Positions 4,869 to 18,604 of a stretch of DNA of 19,886 bases are shown piece by piece (position 1 is the first letter of the stretch; each line of letters begins with the position of its first letter). The notes under the pieces were generated by a model. It was not told the origin of the DNA, ran no database searches, and saw nothing but the letters and a program-made list of their open reading frames with translations. Position numbers and translations under genes: made by a program. This stretch comes from Gallionella sp. UBA6045 (GTDB lineage: Bacteria > Pseudomonadota > Gammaproteobacteria > Burkholderiales > Gallionellaceae), in assembly GCA_002429165.1 (NCBI GenBank), contig DIYV01000111.1:1-19886 (forward strand), read 5' to 3'.

Positions 4869-5873
4869 TCAGACTTGCGCCAATGTGACAAGTTGTGAAT
4901 ACAGGGCATTAGAAATTTCGACACCTTGTTCGTGAGCGCGAACTTCCGTGCTAGATCGGCGCTCGCCCGGCAGCCTCACGTTCGGGTCCGCAAGCATGGC
5001 ACCGATCAATGTTTCCATGCGCTCGTCATATATAGCGGTGCCTGCCAGCGCGCCCGGATCGAACGCCAGAAACCCCTGACCAATACGCGGCGGCTGACCA
5101 GTCTCGGAGAAAAACGACTCCGCTTCAAAGCCGAACGCCGCTCCGGTCAAGGCGCACGACAACAACTCGATCATCAGTGCCAGCATTGCCCCCTTGACGC
5201 CTCCAGCCGGCAGCATGCTACCTTCCAGGGCAGCTTGTGGATCGGTCGTCGGATGACCATCTCGGTCCAGTGCCCAACTCTCCGGAATCGCCCGCCCTTC
5301 GCGCGCGGCGAGCATGATCTTCCCGCGCGCCACTTCACTCAGCGACAGGTCAATCACCAGCGGATCGCGATCGCGGCGTGGAAATACCGCCGCGATCGGA
5401 TTGGTGCCGAACAGCGGCGTACGTCCACCCCAAGCAGGCATGGCGGCGGGAGAATTGCCCCAAGCCAGACCCACCATGCCTGCTTCTGCCAGCGGCGCAA
5501 GATGTAGGGCAGTGGCTCCGAAATGATTGCTATTGGTGACTCCGCTAAATGCCACTCCGAACTCATGCGCGCGCATCAATGTTTCACGCACTGCCAGTGC
5601 ACACGCACCGAAAGCAAGTCCGGCACGCGCATCAACCAGGCAAACTGCGCCTTTTTGGCGCGAAATCGTCGGTAGAGCCCAGCCGTCGACCCGACCATTA
5701 CGCAGATGAGCGGCATATAGCGGCGTGCGCGATACTCCGTGCGAAGCCAGGCCTTGTGCGTCGGCAGCTACTAAAAATTGTGCTGCCAAGCTTGCATTTT
5801 CATGCGCGGCGCCAGCACGTTCCAAACCCTGAGTCACCAGCGCCGTCAATACGTCCAATGTGATCAATGCCAT
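4869..5873 (-). CDS. comC: Ldh_2-family dehydrogenase, likely (R)-sulfolactate dehydrogenase
   Basis: This 334-residue protein belongs to the NAD(P)-dependent malate/L-lactate/ureidoglycolate dehydrogenase family (Ldh_2). Family signatures visible are SHG with the catalytic histidine H45, SNHFG (115-119) and GTNPI (156-160), plus a GGVKG stretch in the C-terminal half. ComC, the (R)-sulfolactate/sulfopyruvate oxidoreductase, is in this family, and the suyAB genes in the same operon make that the best functional guess. If the substrate is a sulfonated dicarboxylate, it could instead act as a sulfomalate dehydrogenase. The ATG at 5873 has AAGGA 8 bases upstream and lies 16 bases after the preceding gene, as the last gene of the long operon. 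The symbol is provisional. Confidence 0.72.
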   Translation of the reverse strand: MALITLDVLTALVTQGLERAGAAHENASLAAQFLVAADAQGLASHGVSRTPLYAAHLRNGRVDGWALPTISRQKGAVCLVDARAGLAFGACALAVRETLMRAHEFGVAFSGVTNSNHFGATALHLAPLAEAGMVGLAWGNSPAAMPAWGGRTPLFGTNPIAAVFPRRDRDPLVIDLSLSEVARGKIMLAAREGRAIPESWALDRDGHPTTDPQAALEGSMLPAGGVKGAMLALMIELLSCALTGAAFGFEAESFFSETGQPPRIGQGFLAFDPGALAGTAIYDERMETLIGAMLADPNVRLPGERRSSTEVRAHEQGVEISNALYSQLVTLAQV

Positions 5874-5889
5874 CAGCTTGTTCCTTTAT

Positions 5890-18320: not shown

Positions 18321-18322
18321 GC

Positions 18323-18604
18323 TTACCACCTCTTGGTTTTTACGTTATGGACATGCAAATGCTCACCCACCTTGATCATCGCAACGGCACGCCCGATATC
18401 AACGCCGTACTTAATCACAGTGTCGTTATTCTTGAGCGCGGCCAGTGCGAATTTGTGACCGATGGGAATATCGTTAAGAACTTTCGTCTTTATGGTCTTG
18501 TCCTGCTCCATTACCCAGCCGGTCAATTCCTGCCCCGCTTTGACACCCTCAACAACGACGACGCCGACACTGTCTTCCTCGTCGTGCACAATAAACTGAA
18601 TCAT
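18323..18604 (-). CDS. suyA: (2R)-sulfolactate sulfo-lyase, small (alpha) subunit
   Basis: This 93-residue SAF-domain protein corresponds to the N-terminal domain of UxaA and, by size and sequence, to SuyA. It contains VHDEEDSVGVVVVEGVKAG (6-24), IPIGHKFAL, the KYGVDIGRA motif and the C-terminal VHNVKTKRW typical of this group. It forms the sulfo-lyase with SuyB, immediately downstream. ATG 18604 has GGGAG about 6 bases upstream. It is the first gene of the long minus-strand operon, with a near-consensus promoter about 130 bases upstream. Confidence 0.88.
   Translation of the reverse strand: MIQFIVHDEEDSVGVVVVEGVKAGQELTGWVMEQDKTIKTKVLNDIPIGHKFALAALKNNDTVIKYGVDIGRAVAMIKVGEHLHVHNVKTKRW

Follow-up and report, generated by a model that had tools for sequence, protein, structure and literature searches.

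What do genes resembling those for succinate dehydrogenase (SDH) and fumarase do in an operon for sulfonate breakdown? The question is raised by a contig of 19,886 nucleotides from Gallionella sp. UBA6045 (DIYV01000111.1, assembly GCA_002429165.1), the whole of which is called the window here. Fourteen genes form a tight operon on its minus strand (4869-18604): suyAB for a putative sulfolactate sulfo-lyase, sdhB, sdhD, sdhC and sdhA, tauE, the genes of a sulfonate-type ATP-binding cassette (ABC) importer, fumA and fumB, comC and a gene for a FAD/Fe-S dehydrogenase. A preliminary description of the window had named these genes, on one strand with short gaps or overlaps, and all of them are indeed present; it proposed sulfosuccinate or another sulfonated C4-dicarboxylate as a candidate substrate. 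Computation establishes a conserved gene set tied to SuyAB, a distinct subfamily of SdhA, and a SuyB lineage shared with other sulfolactate operons. The operon probably degrades a C3 compound, 3-sulfopropionate, by way of 3-sulfoacrylate and (R)-sulfolactate to pyruvate and sulfite; we infer both the substrate and every catalytic step.

The proposed route follows the likeness of 3-sulfopropionate to succinate, of which it is the sulfo-analogue, or sulfo-isostere. After import by the ABC transporter, 3-sulfopropionate would lose two hydrogens to the SDH-like membrane complex, which would pass the electrons to quinone and yield 3-sulfoacrylate, the sulfo-analogue of fumarate. Hydration by the fumarase-type FumAB would then produce 3-sulfolactate, the sulfo-analogue of malate. 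With malate-like stereochemistry the product would be (R)-sulfolactate, by our own reasoning from the Cahn-Ingold-Prelog rules; this is the enantiomer for which SuyAB is named, according to the available part of PMC11489063. SuyAB would eliminate sulfite to leave pyruvate, and TauE would export the sulfite. ComC and the FAD/Fe-S dehydrogenase would oxidize sulfolactate and re-reduce it via sulfopyruvate, so that the other enantiomer could be used too.

The module of SDH-like and fumarase-like genes recurs well outside the window. A scan of contigs with an alignment of 12 SdhA relatives, to which the window SdhA is 48-72% identical, gave at least 591 pattern matches, 565 of them encoding a relative. 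The best 80 of the 565, referred to below as the genome loci, were annotated by BLAST against the reference proteins of the window and of plasmid loci; since only the best matches were retained, the set leans to Betaproteobacteria. In the 42 full loci, which have at least 9 kb of flank on both sides of sdhA, each of SdhB, SdhC, SdhD, FumA and FumB is present in 41 (40 with a hydratase of type I and one of type II, as defined below). SuyB is present in 30, ComC in 28, SlcC and a thiamine diphosphate (TPP) enzyme in 17 each, an SsuA-type binding protein in 12, and HpsN in 3. The preliminary description had suggested a search of genomes for conserved co-occurrence, which these counts bear out. 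One locus (L028) has nearly the same gene order as the window, with SlcC in place of the FAD/Fe-S dehydrogenase. SdhB, SdhD, SdhC, SdhA and FumAB also occur together in all nine proteobacterial plasmid loci (Methylobacterium L001 and L004; Paracoccus L002, L010, and L135; Sulfitobacter L005 and L009; Pseudomonas L006; NT-25 L007). A TauE or YeiH-type exporter is found in eight of the nine, and L009 has a tripartite tricarboxylate transporter (TTT) only. The module is found in alpha- and gammaproteobacteria, on a Rhodococcus plasmid, and on two haloarchaeal plasmids that have an ArgH-family gene instead of the fumarase.

The tie to SuyAB is clearest in an unselected sample of 300 genomes, evenly drawn from the host's order and including the host genome itself (G000). 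The SdhA subfamily (E <= 1e-150) is present in 39 of the genomes and SuyB (E <= 1e-120) in 50. SuyB accompanies the subfamily in 38 of the 39 (37 of 38 without G000), and is found in 12 of the 261 genomes that lack it (Fisher p ~ 2e-36, in a test that takes related genomes as independent). In 30 of the 39, a single contig carries both genes, no more than 20 kb apart. One of the 12 (G212) has the module truncated by the end of a contig (L106), which leaves 11 genomes with SuyB and no module by this test. SuyB is therefore not rarely found alone, whereas the module rarely occurs without SuyB, as one would expect of a module that feeds SuyAB. The co-occurrence supports a functional link of the SDH-like and fumarase-like genes to suyAB. 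It rules out a chance neighborhood, which the preliminary description had named as grounds for giving up the link.

The window SDH-like set follows the plan of complex II: a flavoprotein, an iron-sulfur subunit and two membrane subunits. The SdhB-like iron-sulfur subunit (16376-17110; this and the other operon genes are all on the minus strand) matches TIGR00384 over its cut-off. The SDH and fumarase genes of the preliminary description stand, with corrections to the subunits: the 113-aa protein (16038-16379; Sdh_cyt over the Pfam cut-off) is the SdhD-like anchor, the 115-aa protein (15694-16041, from its likely start; domain and family search) is the SdhC-like cytochrome b556 subunit, and FumB has about 206 aa rather than corresponding to a 324-aa open reading frame (ORF).

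The SdhA-like flavoprotein (8789-10507, 572 aa from its likely start), recognized by family search and a subfamily signature, is the proposed 3-sulfopropionate dehydrogenase. It is a member of a distinct subfamily with fixed substitutions. On the tree this subfamily branches apart from E. coli SdhA, FrdA, and NadB, as well as from the SdhA (L015) and a NadB-like protein (L016) of the host genome, with a support of 100 in the Shimodaira-Hasegawa-like approximate likelihood ratio test (SH-aLRT), a value given with a long-branch warning from the tool. Many members (for example P0009, P0036, and P0128) are named 'L-aspartate oxidase' or 'fumarate reductase' in databases; an identity as L-aspartate oxidase was rejected because the members in the tree fall with neither E. 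coli NadB nor FrdA. Of the seven residues that we take to form the substrate site of E. coli SdhA, six are kept (H242, E255, R258, R286, H354, and R399). At the seventh position, T254, each of the 102 near-full-length relatives examined has Glu, those of haloarchaea and Rhodococcus included. If the presumed residue roles hold, one acid-binding site is changed.

These features bear on the idea that the module is a housekeeping-like spare SDH and fumarase, which processes carbon released from sulfonates. By family name and domain content the genes do belong to SDH and fumarase, and a search of the incomplete genome that covered class I and not class II fumarases found none other than the window FumAB. 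The idea is nevertheless very unlikely, given the separate position of the SdhA and its fixed substitutions. Pyruvate from SuyAB, moreover, needs no extra SDH. A second SdhA of the genome, encoded on another contig (L015), groups with E. coli SdhA (SH-aLRT 99); the two SdhA-like proteins that the genome has besides that of the window are 34-36% identical to the latter. The tree and the signature likewise make an ordinary duplicate SDH unlikely.

The product of the module can be approached through SuyAB, a two-subunit enzyme of the UxaA/galactarate-dehydratase family that is placed in the SuyB lineage and would, like the known sulfo-lyase, eliminate sulfite from sulfolactate in an iron-dependent reaction. 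The large subunit SuyB (17157-18329, 390 aa from the first possible start) has both GD_AH domains over cut-off, and is 76% identical to SuyB of the hpsNO-suyAB operon of Cupriavidus pinatubonensis. The small subunit SuyA (18323-18604, 93 aa) has a weak, below-cut-off match to the N-terminus of galactarate dehydratase, and is 51-56% identical to SuyA of four proteobacterial plasmid loci, 55% to that of the C. pinatubonensis hps-suy operon, and 40% to those of two haloarchaeal loci. A quick tree was made of 63 SuyB sequences, 45 from module loci, five from loci with the module and HpsN, two with HpsN only, and 11 without the module in the stretch examined. Module-linked SuyB does not form one clade: at least seven changes of a two-state label are needed, four of them forced by well-supported branches. 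One SuyB from a locus with both the module and HpsN (L067) is sister to that of C. pinatubonensis (L003; SH-aLRT 98), which has hpsNO-suyAB and no module within the 25 kb examined. HpsN and the module are found with the same SuyAB also in L047 (where SuyB is near the locus end), L079, and the type II locus L002. HpsN of C. pinatubonensis makes R-sulfolactate, and sulfolactate is cleaved by SuyAB, as stated in the accessible part of PMC11382572. The lack of a separate SuyB lineage, the sharing of SuyAB with HpsN, and the neighboring sulfolactate dehydrogenases indicate that the module most likely delivers sulfolactate. Dehydrogenation and hydration lead to sulfolactate from a saturated precursor, and that precursor is 3-sulfopropionate.

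The same evidence argues against sulfosuccinate, the C4 substrate of the preliminary description. In that scheme the SDH-like complex would make sulfofumarate and FumAB would make hydroxysulfosuccinate, from which SuyAB would release sulfite and oxaloacetate; in a variant of the scheme, hydration at the sulfonated carbon would give a bisulfite adduct of oxaloacetate that breaks up spontaneously. SDH and fumarase families do act on C4-dicarboxylates, and type I FumAB retains the motifs of class I fumarase. Genes for TctC-type binding proteins, whose ligands are often C4-C6 acids, are found in 47 of the 80 genome loci, and the tree shows some clustering of the SuyB labels. An adaptation of SuyB to a C4 substrate was nevertheless rejected, as the tree has no single separate, module-specific lineage, even though the labels cluster beyond chance. 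SuyB shared between HpsN and the module in the four loci named above also speaks against it, and ComC and SlcC (28 and 17 of the 42 full loci) would be left without a role. Spontaneous loss of sulfite would not predict SuyB in nearly every module genome, and one acid-binding residue of SdhA is changed throughout the subfamily. To end in sulfolactate, a route from sulfosuccinate would have to include one more decarboxylation; otherwise the substrate of SuyAB would have to be a different one. A route from 3-sulfopropionate requires neither. We consider a sulfosuccinate pathway unlikely. What stands of the earlier proposal is the chemistry, that of SDH and fumarase on a sulfonated analogue of succinate feeding SuyAB; its C4 substrate is not supported.

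Among the neighboring genes, the ComC-like protein (4869-5873) is a putative NAD(P)-dependent sulfolactate dehydrogenase of the Ldh_2 family, from NCBIfam and solved-structure comparison. Its best NCBIfam model is L-sulfolactate dehydrogenase, with 222 bits, below the cut-off of 500, and its third-best solved relative, 2x06, is an L-sulfolactate dehydrogenase. SlcC, a protein like 3-phosphoglycerate dehydrogenase that makes up a sulfolactate-racemizing pair with ComC, was not found in the window. The FAD/Fe-S D-2-hydroxyacid dehydrogenase (5890-8781, 963 aa from its likely start; family search) is in the SlcC position, to judge from L028, and is a candidate respiratory sulfolactate dehydrogenase. 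Relatives of it are present in only one of the 80 genome loci (L025) and in the haloarchaeal locus L011. The TPP enzyme (L001:10562-12187 and relatives) is more common, in 25 of the 80; it is below the Xsc cut-off, and is most closely related to the families of 2-hydroxyacyl-CoA lyase and acetolactate synthase.

The hydratase of the window consists of an alpha subunit (FumA, 11161-12036, 291 aa) and a beta subunit (FumB, 10538-11158, 206 aa), both measured from likely starts and identified by domain and motif search. The two domains carry the cluster and substrate motifs of class I fumarase and tartrate dehydratase. The window FumAB is of type I, in which the class I fumarase motifs are kept, with CQDTG in 73 of 73 loci. 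A second type has C[GA]DTG and a shortened KGGGS loop, in 18 of 18 loci (L002, L004-L010, L094, L120-L128) vs none of 73 of type I, and is accompanied by the same SdhA subfamily. One of the 18 has SuyB in the neighborhood (L002, about 20 kb away) vs 45 of the 73; flank lengths of the type II loci vary, so that a SuyB at such a distance may have escaped detection in the others. With two active-site motifs different and SuyB so unevenly distributed, type II loci were rejected as plain equivalents of type I. Nine type II genomes were searched as a whole: SuyB at 70% identity or more is present in three, and eight have a protein over the Xsc cut-off, the one below it being a genome with SuyB; these numbers stand without a base rate for Xsc, which may simply be common in such hosts. 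Type II hosts would either desulfonate sulfolactate via Xsc or CuyA (the latter not searched), which would agree with the thesis route in Roseovarius discussed below, or have a hydratase that itself releases sulfite.

An elaboration of the second option posits two modules. Type I FumAB would make sulfolactate for SuyAB, and type II FumAB would hydrate the sulfonated carbon of 3-sulfoacrylate, giving the bisulfite adduct of malonate semialdehyde, which would lose sulfite spontaneously and be converted by an MmsA-type dehydrogenase to acetyl-CoA. Since sulfite would leave spontaneously, type II clusters would need no sulfolyase. MmsA-like dehydrogenases adjoin the module in L006, L008, and L128, with a piece in L004. 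The idea is tentative and we regard it as doubtful; if true, it would describe a mechanism of desulfonation without a dedicated C-S lyase. In NT-25 (L007:24143-26668), a reductase like 3-hydroxyisobutyrate dehydrogenase (HIBADH) and a succinate-semialdehyde dehydrogenase (SSADH), over the NCBIfam cut-off for the SSADH subfamily, adjoin the module; among the type II loci examined, only this one has both genes, and they could make 3-sulfopropionate from 3-hydroxypropanesulfonate. As proof of a source of 3-sulfopropionate, an aldehyde dehydrogenase beside the module was rejected, such genes being too few and ambiguous (three of 73 type I and four of 18 type II loci). In L122 (10088-11002), a gene of the homocysteine S-methyltransferase family (Pfam match) separates type II FumA from FumB, and L123 has an ORF of the same size and place (8629-9543).

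Outside the Proteobacteria, plasmids of Natribaculum luteum and Haloarcula sp. GH36 carry SdhA (49% and 48% identical), SdhB, SuyAB, and TauE together, and that of GH36 also a ComC-like gene. FumAB was not found within the 30 kb examined at these loci; an ArgH-family gene adjoins sdhA instead, and the two are the only plasmid records with that ArgH type at 60% identity or more. XcbC1, of the same superfamily, is reported to generate sulphoacrylic acid in coenzyme M synthesis (PMC8727900, from the portion available). Plasmid pRHL1 of Rhodococcus jostii RHA1 has FumAB (48-52%), SdhA, SdhB, SuyAB, ComC, and SlcC within about 25 kb. In this locus (L098), which also has a HIBADH-like match, two GabD-like pieces flank ORFs that look like a transposase (judged by eye, not searched), between the module and suyAB (24610-27434).

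Several observations weigh against the 3-sulfopropionate pathway. The window contains no gene that would make 3-sulfopropionate. The haloarchaeal ArgH-like protein passes the argH cut-off (323 vs 279.5 bits), fails that of XcbC (260 vs 575), and has an intact lyase signature, so that it may be an ordinary argininosuccinate lyase. On the SuyB tree the module label is clustered beyond chance (9 changes vs a mean of 15.9 when shuffled, as low in 0 of 500), and module-linked SuyB may have a partly separate history. The tie to SuyAB has its exceptions, too: SuyB is absent nearby in 12 of the 42 full loci, genome G211 has the SdhA subfamily and no SuyB at the threshold used, and in L063, the one full locus outside the 41, neither SdhB nor FumAB was detected within 9 kb of its close SdhA relative (72%). 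The 12 loci would suit a sulfonate island, that is, two adjoining pathways for unrelated sulfonates with no common intermediate, and such loci do also contain HpsN, and ABC and TTT transporters for other substrates. An island is improbable, however, as the window module is spliced into a single operon that includes suyAB, and a genome with the module almost always has SuyB. Finally, the SHT motif, whose His presumably attaches FAD covalently, is replaced by GCTR in 102 of 102 SdhA relatives, the exact column depending on the alignment (a gap in one). Loss of this His impairs the oxidation of succinate by the E. coli enzymes, and might fit a reductase. The best NCBIfam match of the window SdhA, TfrA, is also a fumarate reductase (510 bits, below the cut-off of 718). 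Both points would agree with a module run in reverse, in which sulfolactate is dehydrated to sulfoacrylate and a fumarate-reductase-like complex makes 3-sulfopropionate as an electron sink. In nearly every module genome of the order, however, SuyAB would compete for the sulfolactate, and the importers, the sulfite exporters, and in some loci (L001) a SorA-type sulfite dehydrogenase point to breakdown. The reverse direction is highly improbable, and degradation of 3-sulfopropionate remains the preferred reading.

How does the proposed pathway relate to known systems? Breakdown of 3-sulfopropionate via sulfoacrylate and sulfolactate, the chemistry proposed here, is ascribed to Roseovarius nubinhibens in PMC11489063, which cites a thesis and, in the part available, names no genes. 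The SdhA subfamily is present in Roseovarius (P0137, P0182), and R. nubinhibens was not seen among the best 120 of 7999 SdhA-related proteins. Bilophila wadsworthia can use 3-sulfopropionate for growth, as an electron acceptor; the route is described as still to be investigated (PMC11489063), and an excerpt of PMC12890257 likewise calls the mechanism unclear. Sources of 3-sulfopropionate include sulfoquinovose and 2,3-dihydroxypropane-1-sulfonate (DHPS) via Enterococcus gilvus, and homotaurine via other bacteria (PMC11489063). In the openly licensed PMC literature searched, as far as its texts were accessible, no genes are named for removal of 3-sulfopropionate, and no gene set for desulfonation of sulfosuccinate or sulfofumarate. 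HpfXYZ of E. gilvus, with a succinyl-CoA synthetase homologue, also treats 3-sulfopropionate as an analogue of succinate; it forms the compound, whereas the window operon is proposed to degrade it.

The operons for DHPS and sulfolactate (hpsNOP-suyAB of C. pinatubonensis; suyAB-slcC-comC) share with the window the SuyAB orthologue, dehydrogenases of the ComC/SlcC type, exporters, and GntR regulators. They differ in the entry, which is oxidation of DHPS by HpsN or import of sulfolactate, and in the window the SDH-like and fumarase-like module. Complex II has the four-subunit plan and the six checked substrate-site residues in common with the window set, which differs from it by the Glu at position 254, a Cys for the covalent-FAD His, and a clade of its own. 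Class I fumarase and L-tartrate dehydratase (FumA, TtdAB; solved 7xky) share the two-subunit plan, CQDTG, KGSGS, and the T-x3-R and GKG of the beta subunit, motifs whose roles we assume to be those of the known enzymes; the window FumAB differs in being part of a sulfonate operon, and its substrate is predicted only. XcbC1 shares its superfamily with the haloarchaeal gene in the FumAB position, which scores below the XcbC cut-off; the window has no ArgH-family gene.

The remaining genes of the operon encode transporters. A TauE-family sulfite/sulfonate exporter (14973-15704; PF01925) is followed by an SsuA/NMT1-type substrate-binding protein (13819-14835), for which no solved relative was found by sequence, a nitrate/taurine-type ABC ATPase (12957-13757, 266 aa) and an ABC permease (12077-12964, 295 aa), the last two from likely starts and all three from domain and family search. 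Counted from likely starts, gaps and overlaps in the operon do not exceed 61 nt, with the single exception of 137 nt between tauE and the binding protein gene. Overlaps join suyA and suyB (7 nt), sdhB and sdhD (4), sdhD and sdhC (4), sdhC and tauE (11), and the ATPase and permease genes (8). Gaps separate suyB from sdhB (46 nt), the binding protein gene from that of the ATPase (61), the permease gene from fumA (40), fumA from fumB (2), fumB from sdhA (30), sdhA from the FAD/Fe-S dehydrogenase gene (7), and the latter from comC (16). Domain and family searches also identified the surrounding genes. Downstream on the minus strand are a GntR/UTRA regulator (4009-4764), a second TauE-family exporter (3144-4007), and an adjoining DUF1634 membrane protein (2806-3147). 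A divergent GntR/UTRA regulator on the plus strand precedes suyA (18873-19622), and has relatives in 33 of the 80 genome loci.

The window is one whole contig (C116) of a draft genome that is incomplete (2.81 Mb, 204 contigs, 83% complete). At the thresholds given above, this SdhA subfamily and SuyB are both missing from the eight listed genomes of the same genus or family, so the operon was likely gained horizontally. Wrong binning of the single contig is possible and less likely, since SdhA proteins up to 98% identical are found in other sources under related names; the nearest named relatives are labeled Gallionella (98%) and Sulfuriferula (92%). At the contig edge opposite to suyA are mobile-element genes on the plus strand (98-2234), for an XerA/integron-type tyrosine recombinase (98-1012) and an IS91-family transposase (1044-2234), both from domain and family search.

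If the proposed pathway is correct, a large group of proteins, many of them now named 'L-aspartate oxidase' or 'fumarate reductase', would be a sulfonate dehydrogenase, with members in 39 of the 300 genomes sampled from one order. It would also provide a clear case of enzymes of central metabolism, those of two steps of the citric acid cycle, reused on a sulfonate analogue before the release of sulfite.

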